Below are positions 7,365-34,972 of a DNA stretch of 54,552 bases, piece after piece. Origin of the DNA: Oerskovia merdavium. GTDB taxonomy: Bacteria > Actinomycetota > Actinomycetes > Actinomycetales > Cellulomonadaceae. Positions within the stretch are counted from its first letter, which is position 1, and each line of letters starts with the position of its first letter. The stretch covers positions 34,395 to 88,946 of the forward strand of contig NZ_JACSQF010000001.1 in assembly GCF_014836755.1 (NCBI RefSeq), read 5' to 3'. The translations under genes and the position numbers were made by a program. The notes below the pieces were generated by a model. The model saw nothing but the letters and a program-made list of their open reading frames with translations, was not told the DNA's origin and did not search any database.

Positions 7365-8381
7365 ATGACCGTGCCGTCGCCCTTCAGCGGGCTGCTCGCC
7401 TATCCGATCACGCCCGTGGGGCCGGGACCGGGCGCCCCCGACCTGGAGGCGCTGGCCGGTCTGGTCGCGAGCACGGTCCGCGCGGGGGTCGACGGCGTCA
7501 CGGTCCTCGCGTCGTCGGGCGCGGGCACGTCGTTCTCGCCCGAGGAGCGCGCCGCGGTCGTGGGCACGGCCGTCCGCGCCGCACGCGAAGCCGGGCCGGG
7601 CCGCTCCGGGGCCCGGGTACCGGTGCACGTCGCCGTCGCGGCGCCGGCCACGACGGAGGTCGTGCGGAACGCGGTGGCCGCGCAGGCAGGCGGCGCCGAC
7701 GGCCTCGTGCTCACGCCCTTCTCGTACGTCCCGCTGGTCGACGACGAGGTCGTGGCCCTGTTCGAGGCCGTGGCCGCCGAGACGGACCTGCCCGTGTGCT
7801 TCTACAACCGGCCCGCGCAGAGCGGGTACGACGCGACCCCGGAGGTCCTGGCCCACCTGGCACGCCACGCCCGCCTCCTGGGCCTCAAGGACCCCGCCGC
7901 GAGGGCGGGCGTGGGCGCTCGCCTGTCCGCCGTCCGGGGCGCGGTCGACGACGACGCGTTCGCCGTCGGGCTGAGCGGTGACCTCGCGATGATCGAAGGG
8001 GCCTTCACCACCCTGCCGTCGAGCGACGCCTGGCACACCGGGATGGCCGCCCTCGTGCCCGCCGAGTACGTCAGGTTGCGCCGAGCGCACGTCGACGGCC
8101 GGCCCCTCGACGCCGTGCTCGAACGATCCTGGCTCCTGGCACTGGCCCGCGAGCTCGGGCAGCTGCGCCCCGTCGCGGGGCTCCACGCGCTCGCCGAGCT
8201 GCTCGGCGTGCCGGCCGGCCGGCCGCGAGGTCCGGTCCTCGCGACACCGCCCGAGCAGGGTGCGGGTCTGCGGTCCGTGCTGGTGCGCCGGCCGGCTGCG
8301 GCGGCAGGGGCCGCGGGGCCGGAGGCCGCGGGGTCAGGGGCGCCGGGGTCGGGGGCCGGGAAGCCCGGTCGCGCGAGGTAG
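7365..8381 (+). CDS. Dihydrodipicolinate synthase/N-acetylneuraminate lyase family aldolase
   Basis: This 338-residue class I aldolase of the DapA/NanA family forms a Schiff base with a keto acid. The catalytic Tyr147 (FYNRP) and Schiff-base Lys175 (LLGLKDPAA) have the 28-residue spacing of Tyr133/Lys161 in E. coli DapA. The GTT/GST carboxylate-binding motif is replaced by LASSGAGTSF, so the substrate is probably not that of true DapA. The C-terminus is an Ala/Gly/Pro-rich low-complexity tail of about 50 residues. The TAG stop (8379-8381) lies inside palindromic element A. The ATG at 7365 is used; no ribosome site is seen and CAGCAT 7 bases upstream could be a leaderless -10. Confidence 0.85.
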   Translation: MTVPSPFSGLLAYPITPVGPGPGAPDLEALAGLVASTVRAGVDGVTVLASSGAGTSFSPEERAAVVGTAVRAAREAGPGRSGARVPVHVAVAAPATTEVVRNAVAAQAGGADGLVLTPFSYVPLVDDEVVALFEAVAAETDLPVCFYNRPAQSGYDATPEVLAHLARHARLLGLKDPAARAGVGARLSAVRGAVDDDAFAVGLSGDLAMIEGAFTTLPSSDAWHTGMAALVPAEYVRLRRAHVDGRPLDAVLERSWLLALARELGQLRPVAGLHALAELLGVPAGRPRGPVLATPPEQGAGLRSVLVRRPAAAAGAAGPEAAGSGAPGSGAGKPGRAR

Positions 8382-8440
8382 AGGTCTCGTGTCGAGGGAG
8401 AGGCCCAGAGACCTCTTCCTCGACAGGAGACCTCTGTCTC
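8375..8440. repeat. Palindromic element A (12-7-12 / 4 / 12-7-12)
   Basis: The left arm is GAGGTAGAGGTC, TCGTGTC, GAGGGAGAGGCC (8375-8405). The loop is CAGA (8406-8409). The right arm (8410-8440) reads in complement GAGACAGAGGTC, TCCTGTC, GAGGAAGAGGTC. The element is imperfect but has the same 31-4-31 architecture as element B at 29923. It supplies the TAG stop of the upstream aldolase gene and lies between convergent genes, so it may also terminate transcription. Confidence 0.85.
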
Positions 8441-8528
8441 GGCGCACGCGTCCGACGGCTTCGCGTCGCCGGCTGATGTCTGTGGCTTCCAGCCCGACGT
8501 CGTGGCCGCCGGTCGGTCGTCGGGACCG

Positions 8529-11186
<2,658 letters not shown>

Positions 11187-11227
11187 CTACCGGCGGCCGG
11201 GCTGCTCCCCGGACTCCGGTGCCCAGA

Positions 11228-13921
11228 TCATTCCGAGGTCTCGGCGGCCGCGGCGAGCGCGAGCGCCTCCTCGGTGGCCTTGCGCTCGGCGCGGACCTCT
11301 TCACGGCTCGTGCCGTAGTAGGCCGCGACCATGATGTCCTTCATGTCCTCGAGCATCGGCAGCCGCGGGTTGGCCGGGGCGCACTGGTCCTCGTAGGCCC
11401 GCATCGCCAGGGCGTCGAGGCCTCCGATGAACTCGCGCTCCGAGACACCCTGCTCCTTGAACGAGCGCTCGATCCCGACCTTGGCCCGCAGCTCCTCGAC
11501 GGCCCGGGCGTACGACTCGACGGCCTGCTCGGGCGTCGAGGCCGGCAGCCCCAGGTGCTTGGCGATCTGCTGGTAGCGCTCGTGCGCGATGTACTTCTCG
11601 GCCTTGGGCCAGCCCGTGACCTTGGTCGGGATCTGCCCGTTGTAGCGGATCGCGTGCGGCAGGAAGATCGCGTTGGTGCGACCGTGGACCAGCCCGAACG
11701 ACGAGCCGACCGTGTGGGCCATCGCGTGCACGATCCCGAGGAACGCGCTGCCGAACGCCATGCCGGCGATCGTGGCCGCGTTGTGCATCTTCTCGCGGGC
11801 CTCGGGGGCGTCGGCCCCCTGCGTGACCGAGGCCTCGATGTGCTCGAAGACCAGCTTGATCGCGTGCAGCGCCAGGCCGTCGGTGAAGTCGTTCGCGTAG
11901 ACCGACACGTAGGCCTCGGTCGCGTGCGTCAGGGCGTCGAAGCCCGAGTCGGCCGCGAGCTTGGCGGGCATCGTCGCGGTCAGGACCGGGTCGATGATCG
12001 CGACCGACGGGGTCAGCGCGTAGTCGGCCAGAGGGTACTTGTACCCGGTCGCGTGGTCCGTGATGACCGCGAACGGCGTGACCTCCGAGCCCGTGCCCGA
12101 CGAGGTCGGGATGCAGACCAGCTTGGCGAGGTCACCCAGGGTGGGGAACTTGAACGCGCGCTTGCGGACGTCGAAGAACTTCTCGCGCAGGTCCGAGAAC
12201 GCCATCTCCGGGTGCTCGTACTTGAGCCACATGACCTTGGCCGCGTCCATGGGCGACCCGCCGCCGATCGCGACGATCGTGTCGGGCTTGAAGTCGCGCA
12301 TCATCTCCGCGCCCTTCTCGACCGTCTCGACGCTCGGCTCGGGCTCGACCTGGTCCATGATCTGGATCGAGACCTTGTTGGGACGGCGGCCCAGGACGTC
12401 GAGGACCTTGTCGACGATCCCGATCTGGCTCATGACCTTGTCCGTGACGATGGTGACGCGCTCGACGTCGGGCATCTGGGCCAGGTACTGGATCGAGTTC
12501 GGCTCGAAGTACGTCTTCGGCGGGATCTTGAACCACTGCATGTTGTTGTTCCGGCGTCCGATCCGCTTGACGTTGATGAGGTTGACCGCCGACACGTTGT
12601 TCGACACCGAGTTGTGGCCGTACGAGCCGCACCCGAGGGTCAGCGACGGGATCAGCGCGTTGTAGATGTCGCCGATGCCGCCGAGCGCCGACGGCTGGTT
12701 CCACAGGATGCGCACGGCCTTGACGCGCTGGCCGAACTCCTCGGCGATGTCCTTGTCCTCGGTGTGGATCGCCCCCGAGTGGCCCAGGCCGTCGAACTCG
12801 ACCATCTGCTCGGCGAGCGAGATGCCGTGGTCGGTCGACTGGGCGCGCAGCACCGCGAGGACCGGGCTGAGCTTCTCGCGCGTCAGCGGCTCGGCGGGGC
12901 CGACCTCGGCGCACTCGGCCAGGATGATCGACGTGCCGTCCGGGACGGTGAAGCCCGCCTGCTCGGCGATCCACTGGGGGCTCTTGCCCACGATCGAGGC
13001 GTTGAGCTTGGCGCCCGCGCAGTTCGCGCCGCCGGCCTCGACGCCGAAGATGAACCGCTCGAGCTTGGCCTTCTCCTCGGGGCTCGCGGGGTAGGCGTGC
13101 ATGTGGGCGAACTCGGCCAGGGCCTCGTCGTAGATCTCGGTGTCGAGGATGACGGCCTGCTCCGAGGCGCACACCATGCCGTTGTCGAAGCCCTTGGACA
13201 GGACGACGTCGTTGACCGCGCGGCCGAGCTTGGCGGTCTTCTCGATGTAGGCCGGGACGTTGCCCGCGCCGACGCCGAGGGCCGGCTTGCCCGCCGAGTA
13301 GGCGGCGCGGACCATCGCGTTGCCGCCGGTGGCGAGGATGAGCGAGACGCCGTCGTGGTTCATGAGGGCCGAGGTGGCCTCGAGCGAGGGCTGCTCGACC
13401 CACTGGATGCAGTCCACGGGGGCACCCTCGGCGACCGCGGCGTCACGCACGATGCGGGCTGCGGCGACCGAGCACTGCTGGGCGCTGGGGTGGAAGGCGA
13501 AGATGATGGGGTTGCGCGTCTTGAGCGCGATGAGCGCCTTGAAGATCGCGGTCGAGGTCGGGTTGGTCACCGGGGTGATGCCTGCGACCACGCCGACCGG
13601 CTCGGCGATCTCGACGATGCCCGTGAGCTCGTCACGGCCGATCACGCCGACCGTCTTGAGGTTGGCCATCGAGTTCGGCACGTGCTCGCACGCGAAGATG
13701 TTCTTGGTGGCCTTGTCCTCGAAGACTCCGCGCCCGGTCTCGGAGACCGCGAGCTGCGCGAGGCGACCGTGCTCGTGGAGGGCCGCGACCGACGCCTTCT
13801 TCACGATGCGGTCGATGTCCTCCTGGGTGAAGGCGTCGTACTGCTTGAGCGCCTTGAGACCGCGGTCGACGAGCGCGTCGATCTCGGTGACTCCTACGGG
13901 GGCCTTGCTCGTGCTGCTCAC
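11228..13921 (-). CDS. adhE: Bifunctional acetaldehyde-CoA/alcohol dehydrogenase AdhE
   Basis: This 897-residue two-domain enzyme reduces acetyl-CoA to acetaldehyde and then ethanol, using two NADH. The N-terminal aldehyde dehydrogenase domain (about 1-440) carries the nucleophile Cys near residue 251 in GFDNGMVCASEQ. The C-terminal iron alcohol dehydrogenase domain (about 450-870) has GGGSPMDAAK, SSGTGSEVTPFAVI and the iron-binding His region FGLVHGRTNAIFLPHA. Such proteins assemble into spirosomes. The GTG at 13921 follows a strong GGAGGAG site. A perfect Rex-type operator lies 54 bases upstream, indicating redox control by the NADH/NAD ratio. It points to fermentative capacity. Its position between ligA and the Rv3015c-like gene looks like an insertion into conserved backbone. 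Confidence 0.97.
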   Translation of the reverse strand: MSSTSKAPVGVTEIDALVDRGLKALKQYDAFTQEDIDRIVKKASVAALHEHGRLAQLAVSETGRGVFEDKATKNIFACEHVPNSMANLKTVGVIGRDELTGIVEIAEPVGVVAGITPVTNPTSTAIFKALIALKTRNPIIFAFHPSAQQCSVAAARIVRDAAVAEGAPVDCIQWVEQPSLEATSALMNHDGVSLILATGGNAMVRAAYSAGKPALGVGAGNVPAYIEKTAKLGRAVNDVVLSKGFDNGMVCASEQAVILDTEIYDEALAEFAHMHAYPASPEEKAKLERFIFGVEAGGANCAGAKLNASIVGKSPQWIAEQAGFTVPDGTSIILAECAEVGPAEPLTREKLSPVLAVLRAQSTDHGISLAEQMVEFDGLGHSGAIHTEDKDIAEEFGQRVKAVRILWNQPSALGGIGDIYNALIPSLTLGCGSYGHNSVSNNVSAVNLINVKRIGRRNNNMQWFKIPPKTYFEPNSIQYLAQMPDVERVTIVTDKVMSQIGIVDKVLDVLGRRPNKVSIQIMDQVEPEPSVETVEKGAEMMRDFKPDTIVAIGGGSPMDAAKVMWLKYEHPEMAFSDLREKFFDVRKRAFKFPTLGDLAKLVCIPTSSGTGSEVTPFAVITDHATGYKYPLADYALTPSVAIIDPVLTATMPAKLAADSGFDALTHATEAYVSVYANDFTDGLALHAIKLVFEHIEASVTQGADAPEAREKMHNAATIAGMAFGSAFLGIVHAMAHTVGSSFGLVHGRTNAIFLPHAIRYNGQIPTKVTGWPKAEKYIAHERYQQIAKHLGLPASTPEQAVESYARAVEELRAKVGIERSFKEQGVSEREFIGGLDALAMRAYEDQCAPANPRLPMLEDMKDIMVAAYYGTSREEVRAERKATEEALALAAAAETSE

Positions 13922-13974
13922 GTTGCTCCTCCAGTGACCCGAGCGGCCGGGTCTGCGTGGTGTCTTTCCCTTGC

Positions 13975-13992
13975 TTGTGAATACTTTCACAA
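13975..13992. promoter_or_regulatory. Rex operator upstream of adhE
   Basis: TTGTGAATACTTTCACAA is a perfect 7-4-7 palindrome that matches the actinobacterial Rex consensus TTGTGAANNNNTTCACAA exactly. On the adhE strand it overlaps the region of a possible promoter (TTGCAT, 17 bases, AAGTAT), so Rex binding would block transcription when NADH is low. Confidence 0.85.
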
Positions 13993-14095
13993 GGTACGGA
14001 TAGATGCAAGAGCCGCTCCAGGATGTGGCACGGGCCACAGGGGGTCGCCCTCTTCCGGGGCGGCCAGGCCGAGACTCCCCGTCCGCCAGGTCGCC

Positions 14096-14101
14096 TAGGG
14101 T
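14096..14101 (+). promoter_or_regulatory. Leaderless -10 of S9 peptidase
   Basis: TAGGGT lies exactly 6 bases before the ATG at 14108, with no ribosome site between, so transcription should begin at the start codon. Confidence 0.55.
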
Positions 14102-14107
14102 GTTTGC

Positions 14108-16303
14108 ATGAGTGCTGAGAACGCCGTGACCGACACGCCCACCGCACAGCCGACCACGCCGCACGACCCGTACCTGTGGCTCGAGGAGGTCGACGGTCGT
14201 GAGGCCATGACCTGGGTCCAGGGCCGCAACGCGGAGACCGCGGCGACCATCGAGGCCACCCCTGAGTTCACCGCGACCGAGCAGGCGATCCGCGAGGTCC
14301 TCGACTCCGACGACAAGATCCCCGACGTCTCCCGGATCGGCGAGCACTACTACAACTTCTGGCGCGACGCGCAGCACGAGCGCGGCATCTGGCGCCGCAC
14401 GACGCTCGACTCCTACCGCACCGACCACCCCGCGTGGGAGCTCGTGCTCGACCTCGACGCGCTGGGCGAGGCCGAGGACCAGAGCTGGGTCTGGCACGGC
14501 GCGAGCGTGCTGCGCCCCGCGCCCGGCGAGGAGTGGCGCCACGCCCTGATCGACCTGTCCCCCGGCGGCTCCGACGCCGACGTCACGCGTGAGTTCGACC
14601 TCGTGACCAAGTCGTTCGTCGCGCCCGAGGACGGCGGGTTCCTGCGCGAGGAGTCCAAGGGAGGGCTCGGCTGGATCGACGCGGACACGGTCTACGTCTA
14701 CACCGACTTCGGCCCGGGCTCCATGACGCCGTCGGGGTACCCGCGGATCGTCAAGCGGTGGCGCCGCGGCACCCCCGTGACCGAGGCCACCGTCGTGTAC
14801 GAGGGCGAGCCCGAGGACATGTACATCATGGGCTGGCGCACGCACTCCCCCGGGTTCGAGCGCGACTTCGTGGGTCGTTCGATCGCGTTCTACGACAGCG
14901 AGACCTACCTGGTCCAGGATGCCGGCACCCCCGACGAGAAGCTCGTCAAGATCGACGTCCCGCGCTCGGCGGAGGTCGGCGTCAAGCGCGAGTGGATGCT
15001 CGTCGAGCTGCGCGACGACTGGACGGTCGGCGGCGCCACGTACGTGGCGGGCTCGCTGCTCGCGACCCGCTTCGAGGACTTCCTCGCGGGGGCCCGCGGC
15101 TTCACGGTCCTGTTCGAGCCCACGCCCTCGACCTCGCTCGCCGGGGCCACCTGGACGGCGCACCACCTCGTCGTCAACGTCCTCGAGGACGTCAAGAACC
15201 GCCTGCACGTGCTGACCCCGCCGCCTCTCGCCGAGGGCCCGGACGTCCCCTGGACCCGCAGCGAGCTGCCGGGCCTGCCCACGATCGGCACGGTCGTCGT
15301 GGGCGCGGTCGACTCCGAGGAGAGCGACGACGTCTGGCTCGTCACGACCGACTACCTCACGCCCTCGACGCTCTCGCTCCTGACCGTGGGTGCGGGCACC
15401 GCCCCCGAGGCCCTCAAGTCGAGCCCTGCGTTCTTCGACGCTCAGGGGCTGGTCATCGACCAGCACTTCGCGGTGTCCGACGACGGCACGCGCGTCCCGT
15501 ACTTCGTCGTCGGGCGCGAGGACCTCGTCCGGCCCGCAGCCGGTGCGGACCCGACCAGCGCCGCCGAGCCCGCCGACGGCGCCCCCGCTCCGGCCGGCTC
15601 CAGCCCGGGCGCCGCACCCACGCTGCTCTACGGGTACGGCGGCTTCGAGGTCTCCCTGACCCCGGGCTACTCCGGCACGCTGGGCCGCGCCTGGCTCGTG
15701 GACGGCGGCGTCTACGTCGTCGCGAACATCCGCGGCGGCGGCGAGTACGGACCGGCCTGGCACCAGGCGGCCCTCAAGTCCAAGCGCCACAAGGCGTACG
15801 AGGACTTCGCGGCCGTCGCGCGCGACCTCGTCGCCCGCGGGATCACCACGCCCGAGCACCTGGGCATGGAGGGGCGCAGCAACGGCGGGCTCCTGGCGGG
15901 CAACATGCTCACCCAGTACCCCGAGCTCTTCGGCGCCGTGATCGTGGGTGTCCCGCTGCTCGACATGCTCCGCTACACGCACCTGCTCGCGGGAGCGTCT
16001 TGGGCTGCCGAGTACGGCGACCCCGACGACCCCGCGCAGTGGGAGTTCATCAGGACGTTCTCGCCGTACCACCTGTTCGACGCCGAGCGCGAGTACCCGC
16101 CCGTGCTCTTCACGACGTCGACCAAGGACGACCGCGTGCACCCCGGGCACGCCCGCAAGCTCGCCGCGAAGATGCTCGCGGCCGGCAAGGACGTGACGTA
16201 CTACGAGAACGTCGAGGGCGGGCACGGCGGCGCGGCGAACAACGCGCAGGCCGCGCACATGGCCGCGATCCACTACCGCTTCCTGCGGGAGCAGCTCGGC
16301 TGA
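14108..16303 (+). CDS. S9 family prolyl oligopeptidase
   Basis: This 731-residue cytoplasmic serine peptidase has a seven-bladed propeller (about 60-440) and a C-terminal alpha/beta hydrolase domain. The catalytic triad is visible: Ser591 in EGRSNGG, Asp674 in TKDDRVHPGHA and His706 in EGGHGG. The oxyanion/structural motifs YGYGGFEVS and ANIRGGGEYG are present. It opens with DPYLWLEEVDG, the standard family start. It probably degrades short peptides. An Ala/Pro/Gly-rich insert near residues 478-500 lies just before the catalytic domain. No signal peptide is seen. It is divergent from adhE, with a leaderless-type start. Confidence 0.94.
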   Translation: MSAENAVTDTPTAQPTTPHDPYLWLEEVDGREAMTWVQGRNAETAATIEATPEFTATEQAIREVLDSDDKIPDVSRIGEHYYNFWRDAQHERGIWRRTTLDSYRTDHPAWELVLDLDALGEAEDQSWVWHGASVLRPAPGEEWRHALIDLSPGGSDADVTREFDLVTKSFVAPEDGGFLREESKGGLGWIDADTVYVYTDFGPGSMTPSGYPRIVKRWRRGTPVTEATVVYEGEPEDMYIMGWRTHSPGFERDFVGRSIAFYDSETYLVQDAGTPDEKLVKIDVPRSAEVGVKREWMLVELRDDWTVGGATYVAGSLLATRFEDFLAGARGFTVLFEPTPSTSLAGATWTAHHLVVNVLEDVKNRLHVLTPPPLAEGPDVPWTRSELPGLPTIGTVVVGAVDSEESDDVWLVTTDYLTPSTLSLLTVGAGTAPEALKSSPAFFDAQGLVIDQHFAVSDDGTRVPYFVVGREDLVRPAAGADPTSAAEPADGAPAPAGSSPGAAPTLLYGYGGFEVSLTPGYSGTLGRAWLVDGGVYVVANIRGGGEYGPAWHQAALKSKRHKAYEDFAAVARDLVARGITTPEHLGMEGRSNGGLLAGNMLTQYPELFGAVIVGVPLLDMLRYTHLLAGASWAAEYGDPDDPAQWEFIRTFSPYHLFDAEREYPPVLFTTSTKDDRVHPGHARKLAAKMLAAGKDVTYYENVEGGHGGAANNAQAAHMAAIHYRFLREQLG

Positions 16304-16317: not shown

Positions 16318-16355
16318 ACGTGCGGGCGGGCTCCCCGGGGAGCCCGCCCTCACGT
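16318..16355. terminator. Bidirectional terminator
   Basis: A perfect 26-base GC palindrome at 16324-16349 is extended by ACGTG/CACGT wings to 16318-16355. It sits between the convergent S9 peptidase and GH65 genes. Confidence 0.8.
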
Positions 16356-25583: not shown

Positions 25584-25621
25584 ACGCACGCCCCGGCAGG
25601 CGAGCCTGCCGGGGCGTGCGT
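25584..25621. terminator. Bidirectional terminator, 17-bp stem
   Basis: ACGCACGCCCCGGCAGG (25584-25600) pairs with its exact complement at 25605-25621 around CGAG. It separates the convergent kinase and etfA genes. Confidence 0.85.
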
Positions 25622-26614: not shown

Positions 26615-26625
26615 GGTGTTCCCTC

Positions 26626-27602: not shown

Positions 27603-27608
27603 CACAAT
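27603..27608 (+). promoter_or_regulatory. Leaderless -10 of glgX
   Basis: CACAAT lies exactly 6 bases before the GTG at 27615. The intervening GGAGGG is too close to act as a ribosome site. Confidence 0.45.
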
Positions 27609-27614
27609 GGAGGG

Positions 27615-29924
27615 GTGCAAGCGCTTGCCCCCACCCCCCGCCCCCGCCCCTCGCACGGCCCGGTCCCGCCGCTCGGCGTGCACCTCGCAGGAGACGGCGT
27701 CGACGTCGCCGTGCTCGCGTCGCACGCGAGCGCCGTCGACCTCTGCCTGCTCGACGTCTCCCCCGACGGTGAGATCCACGAGCGGCGCGTCGCGCTCGAC
27801 GGGCCGAGCTACGGCGTCTGGCACGGTCGTGTGCCCGGCGTGCGCGAGGGGCAGCGCTACGGCTTCCGCGCCCACGGTCCCTGGGATCCCGCCGCAGGTC
27901 TCCGGTACAACCCCGCGAAGCTGCTCCTCGACCCGTACGCGCGCGGGCTCGTGGGCGAGCTCGACGAGGACCCCTCGACGCGCGGGCACGTGACCGAGCG
28001 CGACGCCTCGGGAGCGCTCGTCGGCGACCCGGGCGGTCCGGCCGACCCGCGCAACTCCGCGGCCCACGTGCCGCACTCAATCGTCGTGGCCCCGCGCACG
28101 AACCACCCGCCCGTGCGCCGGCCGCAGGTCCCGTGGGCCGACACCGTGCTGTACGAGGCGCACGTGCGCGGCCTGACCATGCAGCTCGAGGCCGTGCCCG
28201 AGCCGCTGCGCGGCACCTACGCGGGGCTCGCTCACCCGGCCACGATCGCGCACCTCCGGGACCTGGGTGTCACGACGATCGAGCTCCTGCCGATCCACGC
28301 GTTCCTGTCGGAGCCGCACCTCGTGGCCAAGGGCCTGACCAACTACTGGGGCTACTCGACGGCCGGGTTCTTCGCCCCGCACGCGCCGTACGCGACGCGG
28401 GCCGCGCAGGAGGCCGGGCCGGGCGCCGTGGTCGACGAGGTCCGCGGCATGGTCCACCTGCTGCACGAGGCCGGGATCGAGGTCGTGCTCGACGTGGTCC
28501 ACAACCACACGTGCGAGGGCGGGGTCGACGGGCCCCACCTGTCGTGGCGCGGCCTCGACAACCCCGTGCACTACCTGCACGACGGCGCGACCCCGGCCCG
28601 GCTGGCCGACGTCACCGGGACGGGCAACAGCCTCGACTTCCGGCGCGCCCGCGTGGTCCAGGCGACGCTCGACTCGCTGCGCTACTGGGCCCAGGAGATC
28701 GGGGTCGACGGCTTCCGGTTCGACCTCGCGGTGACCCTCGGTCGCGGGCCGAGCGGGTTCGACCCCGACCACCCGTTCCTCGTCGCGCTCCAGACCGACC
28801 CCGTGCTGAACGGGCTCAAGCTCATCGCCGAACCGTGGGACGTGGGCCCTGGTGGGTGGCGGACCGGGCAGTTCCCCGCCCCGATGGCCGAGTGGAACGA
28901 CCGCTTCCGCGGCGCCGTGCGCCAGTTCTGGCTCGCCGACCCCCGTGAGGCCTCGCACGGGCGCCAGGGCCAGGGCGTGCGCGAGCTCGCGACCCGCCTG
29001 GCCGGGTCGGCAGACCTGTTCGGGCACAGCGACCCGCCGCTCATGCGCGGGCCGGTCGCGTCGATCAACTTCGTGACGGCCCACGACGGCTTCACGCTCG
29101 CCGACCTCGTCGCCTACGAGCACAAGCACAACGAGGCCAACGGCGAGGGCAACCGGGACGGCAGCGACGACAACCGGTCCTGGAACCACGGCATCGAGGG
29201 ACGGCTGCAGGACGAGGAGGCCGTGCTCGAGCACGGGGGGTTCGAGCCCGGGCTCGTGATCGCTCCCCTGCGGCGACGCTCGATCCGCAACCTCATGGCC
29301 ACGCAGATCCTGGCCGCGGGCAGCCCCATGCTCACGGCGGGCGACGAGATGGGCCGCACGCAGCGGGGCAACAACAACGCCTACTGCCAGGACGGGCCGC
29401 TGTCCTGGGTGAGCTGGGACCTGTCGCCGTGGCGCAAGGACCTGCTCGCGACCACGACGCACCTGCTCGCCCTGCGCCGCGAGCACGCCGCGCTGCGCAG
29501 CGACGCGTTCTTCCACGGCAGGCCGCGTCATGCCGCCGAGGACGCTGTCCCGGACCTCGCGTGGTTCGACTCCGCCGGGCGTCCTCTCGACCACGACGCC
29601 TGGCACGACCCCGGGTTCCGGGTCCTGCAGATGCTGCGCACGGGCCCGGACGAGGGCGACCGGGACGTGCTCGTCGTGGTCAACGGTGCGCTCGACACGG
29701 TCGAGGTCACGCTCGCCGAGGTGCCGGGACGCGGCGGGGCTGCGGGCTGCGCCTGGGAGCTCGCGTGGGACTCCGACTGGGAGCACCCCACCGAGGGCGA
29801 GCACGGGGGCGAGGGCACCGAGGGCGCCTCCGCCGACCAGGACCCCGCTGGCAGGACCGGCGCGCAGCCCGTCCTGCTCGAGCCCCTCAGCATGCAGGTC
29901 TACCTCTCCGCTCCGCAGCGCTGA
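27615..29924 (+). CDS. glgX: Glycogen debranching enzyme GlgX
   Basis: This 769-residue GH13 isoamylase-type enzyme hydrolyses alpha-1,6 branches of glycogen or limit dextrin. An N-terminal CBM48/E-set domain (PPLGVHLAGDGVDVAV) precedes the barrel. Catalytic Asp370 is in GFRFDLAVTLGR, Glu406 in LIAEPWD, and the third acid is in VTAHDGFTLAD. The family motif NEANGEGNRDG follows. An acidic/Gly-rich insert occurs near residue 720. The GTG at 27615 fits a leaderless -10, and a LacI-type palindrome covers the first codons. The TGA forms the first bases of palindromic element B. Confidence 0.95.
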   Translation: MQALAPTPRPRPSHGPVPPLGVHLAGDGVDVAVLASHASAVDLCLLDVSPDGEIHERRVALDGPSYGVWHGRVPGVREGQRYGFRAHGPWDPAAGLRYNPAKLLLDPYARGLVGELDEDPSTRGHVTERDASGALVGDPGGPADPRNSAAHVPHSIVVAPRTNHPPVRRPQVPWADTVLYEAHVRGLTMQLEAVPEPLRGTYAGLAHPATIAHLRDLGVTTIELLPIHAFLSEPHLVAKGLTNYWGYSTAGFFAPHAPYATRAAQEAGPGAVVDEVRGMVHLLHEAGIEVVLDVVHNHTCEGGVDGPHLSWRGLDNPVHYLHDGATPARLADVTGTGNSLDFRRARVVQATLDSLRYWAQEIGVDGFRFDLAVTLGRGPSGFDPDHPFLVALQTDPVLNGLKLIAEPWDVGPGGWRTGQFPAPMAEWNDRFRGAVRQFWLADPREASHGRQGQGVRELATRLAGSADLFGHSDPPLMRGPVASINFVTAHDGFTLADLVAYEHKHNEANGEGNRDGSDDNRSWNHGIEGRLQDEEAVLEHGGFEPGLVIAPLRRRSIRNLMATQILAAGSPMLTAGDEMGRTQRGNNNAYCQDGPLSWVSWDLSPWRKDLLATTTHLLALRREHAALRSDAFFHGRPRHAAEDAVPDLAWFDSAGRPLDHDAWHDPGFRVLQMLRTGPDEGDRDVLVVVNGALDTVEVTLAEVPGRGGAAGCAWELAWDSDWEHPTEGEHGGEGTEGASADQDPAGRTGAQPVLLEPLSMQVYLSAPQR
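27616..27629. promoter_or_regulatory. LacI-family operator over the glgX start codon
   Basis: TGCAAGCGCTTGCC contains the perfect palindrome GCAAGCGCTTGC and matches the LacI-type pattern TGNAANCGNTTNCA at all but the last base. It spans the start codon and presumed start site, so binding would repress initiation. Confidence 0.55.
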
Positions 29925-29988
29925 GGTAGAGGTCCGGCGTCGGGGTAGAGGTCCCGAGACCTCTACCCCGACGCCGGACCTCTACCTC
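29923..29988. repeat. Palindromic element B, perfect 31-4-31
   Basis: GAGGTAGAGGTC, CGGCGTC, GGGGTAGAGGTC (29923-29953) are repeated exactly in complement at 29958-29988 around a CCGA loop. This is a perfect 31-bp stem directly at the glgX stop codon. It has the same block plan as elements A, C and D. It could act as a terminator but lacks a U tract. Confidence 0.95.
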
Positions 29989-30006
29989 GCGAGGGGACAC
30001 GGGGTC

Positions 30007-30012
30007 TAGTCT
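30007..30012 (+). promoter_or_regulatory. Leaderless -10 of flavoprotein gene
   Basis: TAGTCT lies exactly 6 bases before the ATG at 30019, immediately after element B. Confidence 0.5.
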
Positions 30013-30018
30013 CTGCGC

Positions 30019-31779
30019 ATGAGTGACAACGACGTCAGCATCCCCGACCCGACCGCAGCCCGCCCCGCCCGCGGGAGCGCTACCAGCCCCGGAGCTGCCG
30101 ACTCCGCCGAGGTCATCGTCGTCGGTGCGGGCCTGTCCGGGCTCGTCGCCGCGACCGAGCTCACCGCGGCGGGCCGTCACGTGATCCTCCTCGACCAGGA
30201 GCCCGCCGCGAGCCTGGGCGGGCAGGCCTTCTGGTCCTTCGGCGGTCTGTTCCTGGTCGACTCGCCCGAGCAGCGCCGCATGGGGGTCAAGGACACCCCC
30301 GACCTCGCCCTCGACGACTGGCTCGGCTCGGCGCAGTTCGCGCCGGGCGCGGCGGAGGGCACCGGGCCGGACCGCTGGGGCTACGCCTGGGCCAGAGGGT
30401 TCGTGGACTTCGCGGCGGGGGACATGCGCTCGTGGCTGCACGACAAGGGCGTGCGATGGTTCCCGCTCGTCCAGTGGGCCGAGCGGGGCGGCTACCCCGC
30501 GGGTGGCCACGGCAACAGCGTGCCCCGGTTCCACGTCACCTGGGGCACCGGTCCCGGCATCCTCGAGCCCTTCGTCCGGGCGGCGCTCGACGCCAGGGAG
30601 GCCGGTCTGCTCGACATCCGCTTCCGGCACCGCGTCACCGAGCTCGTCGTCACCGACGGCGCCGTCACGGGGGTGCGGGCAGAGATCCTGGCCGACGACC
30701 CGGTCGAGCGAGGCGTGCCCTCGGTGCGCGACGTCGTGGGCGAGGTCGAGCTGTCGGCGAGCGCCGTCGTCGTCTCCTCCGGGGGGATCGGCGCGAACCA
30801 CGACCTGGTCCGCGCGAACTGGCCCGCGGGCGCGGGCGTCCTGCCCGAGCGCATGCTCTCGGGCGTCCCCGACTCGACCGACGGCCTGATGCTCGGCGTC
30901 ACGCGCGACGCGGGCGCGGCCCTGGTCCACGAGGACCGCATGTGGCACTACCCCGAGGGCATCGCGAACCACTCGCCCGTGTGGACCCACCACGGCATCC
31001 GCATCCTGCCCGGACCCTCGTCGCTGTGGGTCGACGCGCACGGACACCGGCTGCCCGCCCCGCTCTTCCCCGGGTTCGACGCCCTGGGCTCGCTCCAGCA
31101 CGTCACGGGCCGCGCCGACGACCACTCCTGGTTCGTGCTCAACAAGGCCATCATGGAGAGCGAGTTCGCGCTGTCGGGCTCGGAGCAGAACCCCGACCTC
31201 ACCGGCCGGAGCGTGCGGCTGCTGGCACAGCGGGTGCTGCCCGGGGCGGTCGGTCCCGTGGCCAGGTTCGCCGCCGAGTCGCCCGAGTTCGTGTGGGGCG
31301 CGAACCCGACCGAGCTCGCCGCCGGGATGAACGCCCTGACGGCTGCGACCCCCGGGTCGCAGGGGCACATCGACGCGACCGAGCTCGAACGGCTGGTCCG
31401 GCTGCGTGACGACCAGGTGCGCTCGGGGCTCGGCAAGGACCACCAGGTCGTGGCGACGGCGATGGCCCGCAAGTTCTTCGTCGACCGCGTCATCCGCGTG
31501 TCCCCGCCGCGCCCGCTCACGACGCCCAAGGACGGGCCCATGCTCGCGGTCCGGCTCTCGGTCCTGACCCGCAAGACGCTCGGCGGGCTGCACACCGACA
31601 CCGACGGCCGCGTGCTGCGCCCTGACGGCTCGGTCTTCGAGGGCCTGTACGCCGCCGGCGAGGCCGCGGGGTTCGGGGGCGGCGGCGTGCACGGTCACCG
31701 GGCGCTCGAGGGGACGTTCCTCGGCGGGTGTCTCTTCTCGGGACGGACCGTGGGGCGCGCGCTCGCACGGAGCCTGTAG
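30019..31779 (+). CDS. FAD-binding dehydrogenase (KstD/fumarate reductase flavoprotein-like)
   Basis: This 586-residue flavoprotein has the dinucleotide motif VIVVGAGLSGLVAA near residue 33, then SLGGQAFWSFGGLFLV. It has a substrate/FAD region typical of the 3-ketosteroid dehydrogenase and fumarate reductase flavoprotein group, and ends with LYAAGEAAGFGGGGVHGHRA. It probably oxidises or reduces a C-C bond; the substrate is unknown. It resembles the actinobacterial putative FAD-binding dehydrogenase family that includes Rv0785 (from memory). The start fits a leaderless promoter. Confidence 0.85.
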   Translation: MSDNDVSIPDPTAARPARGSATSPGAADSAEVIVVGAGLSGLVAATELTAAGRHVILLDQEPAASLGGQAFWSFGGLFLVDSPEQRRMGVKDTPDLALDDWLGSAQFAPGAAEGTGPDRWGYAWARGFVDFAAGDMRSWLHDKGVRWFPLVQWAERGGYPAGGHGNSVPRFHVTWGTGPGILEPFVRAALDAREAGLLDIRFRHRVTELVVTDGAVTGVRAEILADDPVERGVPSVRDVVGEVELSASAVVVSSGGIGANHDLVRANWPAGAGVLPERMLSGVPDSTDGLMLGVTRDAGAALVHEDRMWHYPEGIANHSPVWTHHGIRILPGPSSLWVDAHGHRLPAPLFPGFDALGSLQHVTGRADDHSWFVLNKAIMESEFALSGSEQNPDLTGRSVRLLAQRVLPGAVGPVARFAAESPEFVWGANPTELAAGMNALTAATPGSQGHIDATELERLVRLRDDQVRSGLGKDHQVVATAMARKFFVDRVIRVSPPRPLTTPKDGPMLAVRLSVLTRKTLGGLHTDTDGRVLRPDGSVFEGLYAAGEAAGFGGGGVHGHRALEGTFLGGCLFSGRTVGRALARSL

Positions 31780-31828
31780 GTCCGGGGACCGGGGCGGCCG
31801 CACGCCTGGAGACGGAGGACCGCTCCCG

Positions 31829-32593
31829 TCACCAGTCCGCGGGCATCTGCACCGGGTCGTCCGGGCTCACGCGCGACGCGCGGAGCCCGGGCACCTCGAG
31901 CAGCGCCGCGACGAGCTCCTCGCTGCCCCCGAGGTCAGTGGACACGGTGTCGAGCTCGGTGCACACGAACCACGACCGGTCGTCCGGCCACCACAAGGTG
32001 GGCGACTGGTGGAGCGACGCGAAGGCGGCGGCCTGCGCGAGCGGGCCGTGCCACAGGTGGTAGCCGCGGTACGGCAGCTCGAGCATCGGTGCCGCAGGCC
32101 GCTCGACCTGGTGCGCGGCCCGCAGCGCTCGCACCCGGGCCTCGGCCTGCGCCTGCGCGAGCGCGAACGAGGACCCCGGCGCGTCCCCCTCACCCACGTC
32201 GTCGATCCCGAACGAGAGCAGGGCGAACGACGTCGAGTCCTCGGGACGGGTCGCGTGGTCGTACAGCCACCCGTACCCGGTCCACAGCGCGAAGTGGCAC
32301 ACCTGGTCGCCCGTGAACGGCGCGAGGGCGTCGAGCAGCAGGTCCATCTGCTCGGGTCCGGTCCGCTCGCTCCGTCCCAGGTAGAGCGACCCGATCCCTT
32401 CGTCCTCCTCGGCCCACGCGGGCACGTCAGGGATGCGCGCACAGGCGGCATAGCCCGACGGGACGCACGCCCCCACGGTCCCCCTCTCCCCCAGAAGGGG
32501 CCCGATCCAGGCCCCGGCCGACGCGTCGCCGTCCCACGCGACCCCACCGAAGGGCGGGGGAAGGTCGGGGAGGTGAGCGGCGTCGTCGGGCAT
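31829..32593 (-). CDS. Hypothetical protein, 254 residues
   Basis: I do not recognise a family. The protein is soluble, acidic and Trp-rich, with YGWLYDHATRPEDSTSF, LPYRGYHLWHGPL and SPTLWWPDDRSWFVCTELD. The last resembles immunity or DUF-type proteins common in actinobacteria. The ATG at 32593 is supported by TACGTT (32600-32605 complement) exactly 6 bases upstream. It is divergent from the membrane protein gene, with only 64 bases between start codons, so both promoters overlap one short region. Confidence 0.75.
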   Translation of the reverse strand: MPDDAAHLPDLPPPFGGVAWDGDASAGAWIGPLLGERGTVGACVPSGYAACARIPDVPAWAEEDEGIGSLYLGRSERTGPEQMDLLLDALAPFTGDQVCHFALWTGYGWLYDHATRPEDSTSFALLSFGIDDVGEGDAPGSSFALAQAQAEARVRALRAAHQVERPAAPMLELPYRGYHLWHGPLAQAAAFASLHQSPTLWWPDDRSWFVCTELDTVSTDLGGSEELVAALLEVPGLRASRVSPDDPVQMPADW

Positions 32594-32599
32594 GAGGCG

Positions 32600-32605
32600 A
32601 ACGTA
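32600..32605 (-). promoter_or_regulatory. Leaderless -10 of hypothetical gene
   Basis: TACGTT on the minus strand lies 6 bases before the ATG at 32593. Confidence 0.5.
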
Positions 32606-32645
32606 GCCGCGGCGAGGGCGCCCGGCCAGCGGACCGCCCTGCCGG

Positions 32646-32651
32646 TACGCT
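32646..32651 (+). promoter_or_regulatory. Leaderless -10 of membrane protein gene
   Basis: TACGCT lies exactly 6 bases before the ATG at 32658. Confidence 0.5.
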
Positions 32652-32657
32652 CCCGGC

Positions 32658-33830
32658 ATGAACCTGCCCGACGGCGCCGCTCCCCCCGGTCCCCCGGCCG
32701 GCGGTCCGGGCCTGGAGCAGCTCGACGCCGCAGGCTGCGAACGCGTCCTGCGACGCAACGGCCTGCCCCTGCTGCTCGAGGACCACTCGGCGCGCCGTGA
32801 CGTGTTCGGGCGCTCGGCGCCCTTCCTCGTGGTCGTGCTGCTGCTCGAGCTCACGGGCGCCCTGAACGGCGGGTGGACCTGGTGGGCCAACCTGCTCGCC
32901 GTGGCCGGGGGCGCGGTGCTGATCGCCGCGGCCTACGCGGGGCTCAACGTCCTGCGCGGGCGGCACTGGTCGACCCTGCCGCAGGACGTCGGCGGTCCCG
33001 AGCTCGCGTTCTTCGTGCTCGTGCCCGCCGTGCTGCCCGCGGTGTTCGGGGGTGCGTGGGGCGCCGCGCTCGTCACGGCCGGCGGCAACCTGCTGCTCCT
33101 GGGGCTCGTGTGGGTCGTGGTCGCGTACGGTGTCGGCTCGTCGCTGTGGTGGGGGCTCGCACGGATCGTCGACGAGCTCGGGGCGTCGCTGATGCGGCTC
33201 GTGCGGCTCCTGCCGCTGCTCATGGTGTTCTCGCTCGTCCTGTTCTACAACGCCGAGGTGTGGCAGGTCTTCAGCCGGACGGGCGGGGCTGCGGGGGTGA
33301 TCCTGGGGACGTTCTTCGCCGGGCTCGTCGTGCTGTTCGTGGGGCTGCGCCTGCCGACCGAGGCGCGGAACGCGCTGCGCACGGCCGCCGACGGGGTGCC
33401 GGGCGCCTCGGACCTCCCGCCGCTGACCCGCAGCCAGCGGTTCAACGTGGCCGCGATGATCGGCCTCTCCCAGCTTCTGCAGGTGCTCGTGGTCAGTGCC
33501 GGGATGGGCATCTTCTTCGTCGCGCTCGGGACGCTGACCGTGACGCCCGAGGTCATGGACCTGTGGGGCATCGACGGGCAGCGCGTGCTCCTGACGTTCG
33601 ACCTGTCGGGGAGCCCGCTCGTGGTCACGCAGACCCTCGTGCGGGTGTCGGTCGTGATCGCGACGTTCACCGGTCTGTACTACGCCATCTCGGTCCAGGT
33701 CGACGCGGTGTACCGCGAGGAGTTCGTCGAGGGGATCGGGGAGCAGCTGCGCGAGGTCCTCGCGACGAGGGTGCGGTACCTGAGGCTGCTGAAAGGTGCG
33801 ACCACGTCTGACGTCGAGGTACAGGGCTGA
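32658..33830 (+). CDS. Multi-pass membrane protein, unknown function
   Basis: This 390-residue protein has a Pro/Gly-rich N-terminus, then about seven or eight hydrophobic segments (for example APFLVVVLLLELTGAL, NLLLLGLVWVVVAYGV, GVILGTFFAGLVVLFVGL, VVSAGMGIFFVALGTL). A charged cytoplasmic C-terminus follows (YREEFVEGIGEQLREVLATR). No transporter signature was recognised. The final residues VEVQG and the TGA come from degenerate 19-bp repeat units of element C, so the natural C-terminus may have been altered by the repeat. The start fits a leaderless promoter. Confidence 0.8.
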   Translation: MNLPDGAAPPGPPAGGPGLEQLDAAGCERVLRRNGLPLLLEDHSARRDVFGRSAPFLVVVLLLELTGALNGGWTWWANLLAVAGGAVLIAAAYAGLNVLRGRHWSTLPQDVGGPELAFFVLVPAVLPAVFGGAWGAALVTAGGNLLLLGLVWVVVAYGVGSSLWWGLARIVDELGASLMRLVRLLPLLMVFSLVLFYNAEVWQVFSRTGGAAGVILGTFFAGLVVLFVGLRLPTEARNALRTAADGVPGASDLPPLTRSQRFNVAAMIGLSQLLQVLVVSAGMGIFFVALGTLTVTPEVMDLWGIDGQRVLLTFDLSGSPLVVTQTLVRVSVVIATFTGLYYAISVQVDAVYREEFVEGIGEQLREVLATRVRYLRLLKGATTSDVEVQG

Positions 33831-33918
33831 CGTCGTGGTACAGGCCTGTCGTCGAAGTAGAACGTACTGCGCGAGGTAGAACGCGCTGCGCACTACTTCG
33901 AGCAGGACGTTCTACTTC
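33816..33918. repeat. Palindromic element C with two extra tandem 19-bp units
   Basis: Blocks begin at 33816, 33835 and 33854, an exact 19-bp period (GAGGTACAGGGC, GTGGTACAGGCC, GAAGTAGAACGT), with a fourth block GAGGTAGAACGC at 33873. The last two form the left arm (33854-33884) of a hairpin with a GCT loop. The right arm (33888-33918) reads in complement GAAGTAGAACGT, CCTGCTC, GAAGTAGTGCGC. The first unit lies in the 3' end of the membrane protein gene. Confidence 0.85.
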
Positions 33919-33927
33919 GCCACCCAG

Positions 33928-33936
33928 TTGTCCACA
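33928..33936 (+). promoter_or_regulatory. DnaA-box-like TTGTCCACA
   Basis: An exact match to the actinobacterial DnaA box TTGTCCACA lies 10 bases after element C and 52 bases before the DUF559-type gene. It is single, so it does not mark an origin. Confidence 0.35.
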
Positions 33937-33987
33937 GATTCCCAGGCACCGCGCCTGGCGCCGCCGATCACCGGCACGCTGAACGAC

Positions 33988-34914
33988 ATGGCACGAGCAG
34001 AGTCCAACCGTCAGGTCCCGCCCGCGCTGCGCTACGAACCAGCGACCCGGGCGCGGCTCGAGCGGAGCCGACGCGACGGACAGGTGGTCCGTGTCCGTCC
34101 AGGGGTCTATCTGCCGCTCCCGACCGGCGACGGGCCCGCACGCCGACGCGAGGCTGAGGTGCTCGCGAGCGTGCGAGGGGTCGTGGAGAGGCTCGCCACC
34201 TCCTACTGGCTGAGCCACGAGACAGCGGCTCTCCTGTGGGGGTGCTGGACCTGGCGGCTCGGGCGACTGGTCCATGTGACCCAGCTCGCGAATCCCAGCG
34301 TGCGCCGCGACTCCGACCCGACCACCCGTCGTCACTGGACCGCGTTGCCCGAACGCGACCGGCACGACCTGGACGGCGTCCCGGTCACCTCCCTGGAGCG
34401 GACCGCGGTCGACTGCGCCCGTTCGCTGCGGCCCGCCAGCGCCCTCGTCGTCGCCGACTCTGCGCTGCGACTCGGCGCCGAGGTCCGGCTGCTCGAGAAG
34501 ATCCTCGACGAGTCGGCGGGAAAGCGCGGGGTGATCCAGGCACGGCAGATCCTCCGGATTGCCGACGCCCGGTCGGAGTCACCCGGCGAGACCCTGTTGC
34601 GTTGGGCCGCTCTCGACGCCGGCTTCCCGGTGCTCGTCCCCCAGTTCTCGGTCGCCACCTGGCGCGGCGAGTTTCGACTCGACCTCGCCTGGCCCGAGCT
34701 TCGCATCGGGCTCGAGTTCGACGGCATGGTCAAGTACGCCGGCGGCATGGGCGACCCCGCAGAACGCCTGCTCGCCGAGAAGTTGCGTGAGGACGCGCTC
34801 CGAGAGGCGGGGTGGGCGATCCTTCGCGTGACCTGGGGGGACCTGGAAGATCTGGAACGCCTCGCGGATCGGCTCCGTACGGCCAGGAGGCTTGCCCGCG
34901 AGCGGGCGAAGTAG
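33988..34914 (+). CDS. AbiEi-like N-domain plus DUF559/Vsr-type endonuclease domain protein
   Basis: This 308-residue protein has an N-terminal region like the AbiEi/type IV antitoxin winged-helix family (LERSRRDGQVVRVRPGVYLPL; SHETAALLWG; VTSLERTAVDCAR). The C-terminal DUF559-type PD-(D/E)XK fold is related to Vsr nicking endonucleases: FRLDLAWPELRIGLEFDG supplies the Asp and Glu-x-Asp positions, then REDALREAGWAILRVTWGDL. These are multi-copy, poorly characterised proteins in actinobacteria. The ATG at 33988 is chosen; an earlier TTG at 33928 is within a DnaA-box-like site. Its TAG stop lies in element D, and element C lies upstream, so the gene is bracketed by same-subtype palindromes. A DNA nicking or mobile role is inference. 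Confidence 0.85.
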   Translation: MARAESNRQVPPALRYEPATRARLERSRRDGQVVRVRPGVYLPLPTGDGPARRREAEVLASVRGVVERLATSYWLSHETAALLWGCWTWRLGRLVHVTQLANPSVRRDSDPTTRRHWTALPERDRHDLDGVPVTSLERTAVDCARSLRPASALVVADSALRLGAEVRLLEKILDESAGKRGVIQARQILRIADARSESPGETLLRWAALDAGFPVLVPQFSVATWRGEFRLDLAWPELRIGLEFDGMVKYAGGMGDPAERLLAEKLREDALREAGWAILRVTWGDLEDLERLADRLRTARRLARERAK

Positions 34915-34972
34915 AACGTGCCGCGTGAAGTAGAACGCAGGGGGTTCTACTTCACGCGGCACGTTCTACCTC
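34908..34972. repeat. Palindromic element D (12-7-12 / 3 / 12-7-12)
   Basis: GAAGTAGAACGT, GCCGCGT, GAAGTAGAACGC (34908-34938) face a right arm (34942-34972) that reads in complement GAGGTAGAACGT, GCCGCGT, GAAGTAGAACCC, around an AGG loop. The TAG inside the first block (34912-34914) is the stop codon of the DUF559-type gene. The element lies between that gene and the convergent glgP. Confidence 0.9.

Follow-up and report, generated by a model that had tools for sequence, protein, structure and literature searches.

What are the four palindromes in this stretch of Oerskovia merdavium DNA, and why do two of them enclose a gene? The window analysed here is the whole 54,552-nt stretch. A preliminary description claimed four elements (A to D) with a 12-7-12 / 3-4 / 12-7-12 plan. 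Its interpretation was supported in part; it overlooked the gene between C and D (P0001), and also that the elements fall into three subfamilies that replace one another at orthologous sites. We know of no dedicated enzyme of dispersed bacterial palindromes other than RAYT-type transposases. The analysis tips slightly in favor of a REPIN-like system that is built on a different protein, of the P0001 type, and whose copies double as bidirectional terminators.

Elements and genes in the window

Because genes were called with an in-house codon-usage finder, start codons are only rough; stop codons are firm. Coordinates and plan were reproduced for all four elements and the perfect stem claimed for element B was confirmed (Table 1). 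The GARGTAGARS core described for the boxes is exact in 10 of 16, has one mismatch in 5 and is worse in the last box of A. The repeating unit is 19 bp, a 12-bp box plus a 7-bp linker, iterated with a central inversion. Linkers agree between the arms at 6 (A), 7 (B), 5 (C) and 7 (D) of 7 positions, with RNA folding z-scores of −8.2, −13.6, −7.9 and −12.8, respectively. Element B and the stretch containing D head the list of inverted repeats in the window. The window holds 6 occurrences of GTAGARS-N0-30-GTAGARS where 0.01 would be expected, and elements B, C and D account for 5 of them. No Rfam family reached its gathering threshold on the window.

Element B starts inside the stop codon of the plus-strand gene 27678-29924, with the next predicted gene ∼30 bp further on. 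Element C lies ∼23 bp past the stop of the plus-strand gene 32658-33830; the degenerate units to its left, read by eye, may be remnants of an older array. Element D gives P0001 its TAG stop (34912-34914). Two other readings were dropped: uptake sequences, as 12-mers repeated in terminators (exact boxes outside the elements are rare in the window, 2/12), and, on inspection, integron attC sites (the scanned flanking genes are ordinary and all four boxes alike). A common type of cargo between neighboring elements was also rejected, the ten proteins scanned there being unrelated.

Table 1. Palindromic elements and associated genes in the window
Feature	Position	Strand	Description
Element A neighbor gene	7365-8381	+	TAG stop (8379-8381) lies in first box of A
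Element A	8375-8440	.	Class 2; four-box palindrome, imperfect
Element A convergent partner gene	8529-10979	-	DNA ligase-like
Element B	29923-29988	.	Class 2; perfect 31-bp stem, loop 4
Degenerate class 2-like units	33815-33852	.	Adjoin element C on left; ∼19-bp period
Element C	33854-33918	.	Class 1; loop 3; four-box palindrome, upstream of P0001
P0001	33988-34914	+	AbiEi-like N-terminus, REase-like C-terminus; between elements C and D
Element D	34908-34972	.	Class 1; loop 3; four-box palindrome
Element D convergent partner gene	34985-37570	-	Carbohydrate phosphorylase-like

Dispersed copies, classes and stem pairing

That the palindromes form a modular family was borne out by a genome-wide search, in which further copies were found both in the window's genome and in relatives. 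The window's genome holds 34 intergenic copies, 2 of its 36 places (intragenic, weak) having been left out before context counts. Matches were found in 7/7 genomes of the genus and in at least 15/30 other genomes of the family.

The arms covary, as had been proposed: 90.4% of cells are paired, and there are 62 double-change cells versus 26.4 after shuffling. Double changes that preserve Watson-Crick pairing in the stem number 24, with ∼2 expected by chance. The matching of linkers described earlier was recovered for classes 1 and 3 (observed values reached in 0/500 within-class shuffles) and not for class 2, which includes A and B (56/500); 17 of 107 elements were left out of these shuffles because their length was not 67-68 nt or they contained N. 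A hairpin-templated origin, also suggested at that stage, fits element B. Its linkers match at 7/7 positions and those of its orthologs in genomes G001, G003 and G002 at 5, 4 and 4, and the symmetry of B is therefore probably derived.

Subfamily class differs between species at 10 of 30 shared positions. Eight of the 12 class 3 copies in G002 occupy sites that hold class 1 or 2 in other species, and identical or near-identical class 3 copies are present at several G002 loci. A G002 element also occupies a site that is empty in G000, G001, G003 and G005.

The sister genomes G000 and G004 (glgP 97.5%) have P0001 proteins that are only 53% identical, versus 86% for G000 and G005. Sites C and D differ in class because the segment was exchanged as a whole, and conversion of an element by itself does not account for the difference. 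Elsewhere the sisters carry the same class at 18/18 dispersed sites paired at up to 70 bp, and by eye at a 19th; this comparison took in a subset of the G004 sites, and a pairing 537 bp off proved to be a different site. Since the alleles differ but the site classes agree, quick rewriting of the genome by the P0001 allele is unsupported.

By these P0001 identities, the segment C-P0001-D behaves as an exchangeable cassette. This would suit a defense or toxin-antitoxin module in which the nuclease overlooks its own palindromes or is restrained by them, the cassette is swapped between species for defense and the repeats are recombination boundaries. We regard this as highly improbable; Pfam recognized no toxin partner or other defense gene among the scanned neighbors in the window, and such a module leaves unexplained why copies of one class are also dispersed.

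Position at gene ends

Among 103 copies from four genomes with both neighbors known, 52 lie between convergent, 48 between codirectional and 3 between divergent genes; 4 of 107 elements without both neighbors were excluded, 3 of them in G002. Copies are placed directly 3′ of stop codons, and 47 of the 48 codirectional copies are closer to the upstream stop. A long ordinary hairpin was found in 18/26 element-free convergent gaps versus 1/35 divergent gaps, and a second, ordinary hairpin in only 4/52 convergent gaps that bear an element. The elements substitute for ordinary terminator hairpins at gene ends, and transcription may terminate at them.

Like intrinsic terminators, the palindromes present a stable GC-rich hairpin right after a stop codon, frequently between convergent genes. 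They differ in forming a repeated family with conserved boxes and in having no U-tract (at least 6 T in 12 nt), which was seen at 0 of 152 element sides. The preliminary description had offered ordinary terminators as its alternative, and this captures the occupied slot but not the absent U-tract. In its full form the alternative holds that these are bidirectional intrinsic terminators made alike by gene conversion or duplication, that there is no dedicated enzyme and that the P0001 flanks are two more terminators. The strong 3′ placement, the replacement of ordinary hairpins and the presence of other strong hairpins in similar slots of the window all speak for it, but we consider it unlikely. 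The box and the 19-bp unit are conserved beyond the needs of a hairpin, and both the repeated class 3 copies of G002 and the flanks of P0001-family genes in other genera (below) argue against it.

P0001 and its protein family

The open frame of P0001 runs from a TTG at 33928; the likely start is the ATG at 33988. PADLOC AbiEi models match residues 40-210 (E 3.9e-12), with a sub-cut-off AbiEi-like match in Pfam. The C-terminus is of the MTES_1575/DUF559 type, under the Pfam cut-off; among 30 homologs, 8 match MTES_1575 and 1 matches DUF559 (E ≤ 0.01). E201, D232, E243, D245 and K249 are invariant across these 30 homologs, giving the E, D, ExD, K pattern shared with Vsr-like, DUF559 and MTES_1575 nucleases. 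From this conservation the acidic and lysine residues are putative catalytic residues. No relative of solved structure was found by sequence up to E 10, and a Pfam scan of the neighboring genes at 32658-33830 and 31829-32593 gave nothing at E ≤ 0.001. The titles and abstract starts listed by literature searches gave no description of the palindrome family or of a gene-palindrome link, and none connecting nucleases of these types with flanking palindromes.

According to the consulted part of PMC3985639, the promoter of AbiEi carries inverted 23-3-23 repeats to which the protein itself binds, and a conserved part of ∼11 bp in them is proposed to be read by the wHTH. P0001 resembles this type IV toxin-antitoxin system in its AbiEi-like N-terminal region and in having inverted repeats close to the gene. 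The 12-bp box is near the conserved AbiEi part in length, and box plus 3-bp center resemble the operator geometry given in the same part of that paper. The palindromes beside P0001 could thus be its operators and the dispersed copies extra binding sites. Such autoregulation is decidedly unlikely, as matched repeats flank the gene on both sides, with an overlap into the stop codon at the window locus, and the dispersed copies are placed at gene 3′ ends, with few in divergent promoter regions (3/103). P0001 also differs from AbiEi in its C-terminal REase-like motif, and no AbiEii nucleotidyltransferase toxin was recognized beside it among the neighbors scanned at the window locus.

Matched repeats at P0001-family loci

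Similar repeats on both flanks (score ≥ 24) were found at 33 of 41 usable P0001-family loci versus 2 of 304 control genes; both of these control genes directly adjoin the element beside the P0001 ortholog in Cellulosimicrobium. Matched flanks are absent at the other 8 loci. From an initial 45 loci, 2 that lay at contig ends and 2 that were duplicate pieces were dropped to leave the 41, with gene ends taken from tblastn; in one search, loci were obtained for 30 of 47 matches. Locus L155 is itself a P0001 homolog.

Between genera, repeat similarity tracks protein identity (26 loci, 284 pairs, rho 0.40, permutation p 0.0005), as measured on repeat segments only, since shared neighboring genes confound the comparison. 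Across 12 genomes, dispersed elements were closer to the homolog flanks of their own genome than to flanks from elsewhere (permutation p 5e-5). For four genomes the dispersed example was chosen among the matches listed, and for eight it was the match that fitted the model best. The own genome ranked first in 5, second in 2 and lower in 5 (3, 4, 6, 10, 10).

P0001-family genes in other genera have quite different but locally matched flanking arrays. A second family, of GAGACGGGTG arrays, flanks a P0001 paralog in G001, G005 and G006, where it has 15, 15 and 11 matches, of which 3, 4 and 2 are the paralog flanks. There are 2 matches in G003, 1 in G004 and 0 in G000. G002 has 7, but no cognate gene was found there at E ≤ 1e-10. 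This family has no 3′ bias (17 copies: 3 convergent, 11 codirectional with 6 closer to the stop, 3 divergent), a further point against ordinary terminators.

Some homologs (L246, L247, L248 and L255) sit between forward arrays on the left and reverse arrays on the right, so the palindrome corresponds to both arms minus the gene, as in MITEs and other TIR elements. They differ from these in that no target-site duplication was seen by eye at the inspected element sites and the partner is not a known transposase.

Comparison with REP and REPIN systems

In the consulted parts of PMC3116915 and PMC3733652, REPs and REPINs are short extragenic palindromes occurring as dispersed inverted pairs, with subfamilies and a dedicated gene that has its own repeats on its flanks; the latter source places REPs mostly downstream of genes, and Actinobacteria has 0 occurrences in its text. 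The palindromes described here are likewise dispersed, extragenic and multi-copy, lie 3′ of genes and have subfamilies, and the flank test adds a dedicated gene with matched repeats. Most boxes also contain GTAG. A REP/RAYT system proper is nevertheless hardly credible. A search for the RAYT-type transposase domain Y1_Tnp (PF01797, IS200/IS605-type) was positive in 0 of 24 genomes, although 16 of these have elements, and in 5 of 14 control genomes. The partner here is AbiEi/REase-like, the unit is an iterated 19-bp box, and GTAG lies within the box, paired with CTAC in the stem and not unpaired at one end of the hairpin.

Proposed explanation and implications

In the favored REPIN-like reading, the palindromes would be short non-coding elements whose cognate partner is a P0001-type gene flanked by repeats of the same kind. 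Proteins of the P0001 family may bind and cut DNA and mobilize or convert the elements. The AbiEi-like N-terminal domain would most likely recognize the box, and the nuclease-like part would most likely nick or cut the elements. Cutting would allow elements to spread and to be overwritten by a copy of another element, and overwriting would put a new subfamily where an older one had been. Bidirectional termination at gene 3′ ends would have passed, in the Oerskovia-like lineage, to the highly stable family 1 hairpins, a job that would hold them in place and maintain stem pairing. More tentatively, and with the balance somewhat against it, these may represent a new class of repeat-and-enzyme system in Actinobacteria, in which AbiEi-like/REase-like nucleases each read an iterated box of their own, flank themselves with it and, through cutting and copying in a homing-like conversion, sow and replace dispersed palindromes, one family of these having been domesticated as terminators at gene 3′ ends.

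Such hairpins seem to corrupt or break short-read assemblies. With subfamilies replaced at fixed positions, concerted evolution among dispersed 67-bp elements can be put to a direct test. If the explanation is correct, a second and unrelated protein family would have palindromes of its own, and the life-style would have had more than one origin. It would also provide a likely substrate for an uncharacterized nuclease-like family of Actinobacteria, and the paired variants of box and protein could be used to read out DNA specificity.

Size and anatomy of the palindrome family

The genome that holds the window (G000) is an Oerskovia-like draft of 4.49 Mb, and the closest named record found for its glgP-like gene is from Oerskovia rustica (95% amino-acid identity). 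The preliminary description had treated palindromes A-D as members of one repeat family, and all four were present with the coordinates and plan then reported. Genomes were searched with a degenerate pattern, followed by a covariance model of the family (R1). Further copies were recovered: R1 matched 36 places in G000 at E ≤ 0.1 (34 intergenic, two weak and intragenic). Relatives were matched in 23 of 59 genomes, comprising all seven of the genus (20-71 matches per genome over both strands), 15/30 in the rest of the family and, weakly, 1/22 beyond it. With a looser core pattern, matches came from 13 of the 149 genomes in the order, six inside the family; beyond the family G065 gave eight matches, G124 two and five genomes one each, these single matches being no more than a control pattern yields.

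By inspection the 34 elements of G000 look clustered, with several pairs or triplets within 1-4 kb against an average spacing of ~130 kb. Some family hairpins are broken by long C runs or N runs, and contigs end within elements in genome G002 (contigs C40 and C3) and in O. rustica (L083). The pattern suggests that short reads drop out at the hairpin, so element counts from drafts are probably low.

Each 19-bp repeat unit consists of a 12-bp box and a 7-bp linker. As read from the sequences, most elements run from two units through a 3-4 nt centre into two further units in inverted orientation; forms with two, three or five units occur as well. Elements were assigned to the nearest box consensus: class 1, GAGGTAGAAC; class 2, GAGGTAGAGG; class 3, GAGGTAGACC. 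Among genomes of the genus, class 2 made up 26/27 elements in G001 and class 1 made up 14/18 in G005. G000 carried 17 of class 2, 15 of class 1 and 2 of class 3, and G002 carried 12 of class 3, 10 of class 2 and 6 of class 1.

The suspected covariation of the arms was borne out, with double changes at 19/32 stem pairs in 14 elements. Across 46 same-class orthologous pairs, which are not mutually independent, 37 stem changes affected both sides (6.5 expected under independent sides), and Watson-Crick pairing was kept in 24 of these (~2 expected). The proposed matching of linkers within elements held for classes 1 and 3, where none of 500 within-class shuffles reached it, and failed for class 2 (56/500). 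Inner boxes gave no matching excess overall (119/500 shuffles); class 2 alone did (6/500). Element B is the class 2 exception: its linkers agree at 7/7 positions, against 5, 4 and 4 in its orthologs in G001, G003 and G002, so that by comparison of the sequences its symmetry is probably derived, as hairpin-templated correction would give. Several class 1 elements carry a two-base inner-stem mismatch, which gives the palindrome polarity.

Coordinates of elements, genes and related features
Feature	Genome	Location	Remark
Element A	G000, window	8375-8440	class 2
Element B	G000, window	29923-29988	class 2
Element C	G000, window	33854-33918	class 1
Element D	G000, window	34908-34972	class 1
P0001	G000, window	33988-34914(+)	
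Inner-stem mismatch, example	G000, window	33873-33899	GTAGAAC opposite GTAGTGC
Non-family long hairpins	G000, window	6067-6104, 16318-16355, 25584-25621, 46790-46842	between convergent genes
Clustered elements, examples	G000	C44 28-31 kb, C22 345-347 kb, C14 15-16 kb	
Broken family hairpins	G000	L004 ~5950-6030, L064:3435-3502	
Broken family hairpin	G002	L173:5134-5220	
Element pair	G000	L007:3503-5375	L189 in G002
Class 1 element	G000	L004:4648-4714	G004: L303 near 2798
Inverted P0001 segment	G002	L173:1-1220	compared with window 33854-34972
Divergent P0001 homolog	G000	C22:182361-182963 (L078)	flanked by CGAGCGTGCAGTTCGGGC
P0001 homologs	Nocardioides and other Nocardioidaceae	L155:666-1694, L150:377-1414, L122:11673-12671	

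The proposed partner gene P0001

Elements C and D flank P0001. Its N-terminal part is AbiEi-like (PADLOC E 3.9e-12; Pfam below its cut-off) and its C-terminal part REase-like (MTES_1575 in 8/30 and DUF559 in 1/30 homologs at E ≤ 0.01), with E201, D232, E243, D245 and K249 invariant across 30 homologs. An element lies at either side of the ortholog in G000, G001, G003, G004 and G005; the G002 ortholog likewise has two, one of them truncated at the contig end. The flanking class is 1 in G000 and G005, 2 in G001, G003 and G004, and 3 in G002. This class is also the most frequent in G005, G001 and G002, in G004 (16 class 2 and 9 class 1 among 25 elements examined) and in G003 among the matches listed, which include no class 1 box. 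G000 is the exception, class 1 being only its second commonest (15 vs 17).

By neighbouring genes G000 and G004 are sisters, yet P0001 of G000 is 53% identical to that of G004 and 86% to that of G005: the C-P0001-D segment has been exchanged as a unit. In G002 the P0001 segment between the elements is inverted relative to its neighbour, either a real inversion between palindromes or a contig-end assembly effect.

P0001 homologs were found in 12/12 other genomes tested. Flanks were compared at 45 loci (30 of 47 matches and 15/15 of another search), of which 41 were usable. Left and right flanks shared a repeat (score ≥24) at 33/41 P0001-family loci and at 2/304 control genes of similar length, both of these two controls adjoining the element beside the P0001 ortholog in Cellulosimicrobium. 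Repeats are wholly different among paralogs, for example arrays of CGAGATACCGG, GAGACGGGTG and TTCGGTGATTCG. Between genera, loci with more similar proteins also tended to have more similar repeats (rho 0.40, 284 pairs, permutation p 0.0005), some of the loci compared possibly being orthologous places. Dispersed elements fitted the homolog flanks of their own genome better than those of others (12 genomes, permutation p 5e-5); own flanks ranked first in G017, G029, G033, G065 and G079, second in G009 and G036, and lower in G013, G062, G161, G030 and G031.

A second family inside the genus, of GAGACGGGTG arrays, repeats this gene-repeat pattern: it surrounds a P0001 paralog in G001, G005 and G006 and lies on one side only in G003. 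These genomes hold 15, 15, 11 and 2 matches, with 3, 4, 2 and 1 of them being flanks of the paralog itself. The paralog was not found in G000 and G004, which hold 0 and 1 matches, nor in G002, which yet holds seven. Separately, G000 carries another P0001 homolog, a divergent one, with a different repeat at its flanks, and homologs occur in Nocardioidaceae, where the L155 flanks have a repeat in common (score 47, first flank comparison).

Turnover and proposed mechanism

Elements of four genomes (107) fell into 48 orthologous positions, 30 common to at least two genomes. Elements were joined into one position when both flanks matched, or when a single flank match lay near the element; in each of groups 87 and 96, two adjacent sites have been merged. 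Class differed between species at 10/30 common positions: 9/15 convergent, 1/13 codirectional (Fisher p 0.006) and 0/2 others. In groups 46 and 67 the four species carry three classes between them (a contig end truncates the group 46 copy from G002); in the alignment, the right-hand junction of group 67 is alike at 44/45 bases in G001 (class 2) and G002 (class 3). Eight of the 12 class 3 copies in G002 occupy positions holding class 1 or 2 in other species, one of the eight being the P0001 locus, where the whole segment is exchanged. The chance of this coincidence is p ~1e-9 with ~3.4% of suitable slots occupied, an estimate from gap counts, and 3e-6 with 10%. G002 also has a new element between the orthologs of window 30019-31779 and 31829-32593, with none in G000, G001, G003 or G005.

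When dispersed sites of the sisters G000 and G004 were paired within 70 bp, class agreed at 18/18, and by eye it agreed at a nineteenth, despite differing P0001 alleles; this agreement speaks against a fast replacement process. One class 1 element of G000 is only a single box in G004, a recent gain or loss. An element pair 1.8 kb apart in G000 is ~0.5 kb apart in G001 and G005 and single in G002; gene segments between element pairs vary among species.

PMC3985639 describes AbiEi binding at a pair of inverted 23-bp sites separated by 3 bp, and proposes that the wHTH of AbiEi recognises a conserved stretch of ~11 bp; this layout closely resembles that of the inner boxes of the palindromes (12-3/4-12). 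P0001-type proteins most likely bind their own boxes. Cutting or nicking at elements by the REase-like part is plausible, and a cut element could be repaired from another copy, which would explain class replacement at a fixed place. At L246, L247, L248 and L255 the homolog gene lies between forward and reverse arrays; a dispersed palindrome is thus equivalent to the two ends minus the gene. The system would work like REPIN-RAYT; REPIN-RAYT proper was ruled out, the Y1 transposase being found in 0/24 genomes and the tag being paired. No description of the gene-palindrome system was found in the titles and abstract starts of the open-access papers listed.

Position in terminator slots

Of the 107 elements, 103 had both neighbours: 52 convergent, 48 codirectional and 3 divergent. 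Weighted by length over four mutually orthologous stretches of 55-57 kb, convergent gaps make up 17% of the intergenic space, codirectional gaps 35% and divergent gaps 48%. Codirectional elements lay nearer the upstream stop codon in 47/48 cases, and TAG of the end box doubles as the gene stop codon at 31/152 stops. The best element in each of 15 non-genus genomes was convergent in 7, codirectional in 6 and called intragenic in 2.

A long ordinary hairpin was present in 18/26 convergent, 8/30 codirectional and 1/35 divergent element-free gaps. Element-bearing convergent gaps had an additional hairpin in 4/52, little space being left there (median 45 bp; 4/16 where at least 60 bp remains). Elements thus stand in for terminator hairpins. 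A U-tract was absent (0/152 element sides), so family 1 elements would act either as terminators of a U-less kind or as protectors of RNA 3' ends. Four non-family window hairpins look like ordinary terminators of G000. Among 17 copies of the second family there was no such link to 3' ends, so the terminator role belongs to family 1 and not to the whole system. The family occupies terminator slots, yet exceeds a set of ordinary terminators.
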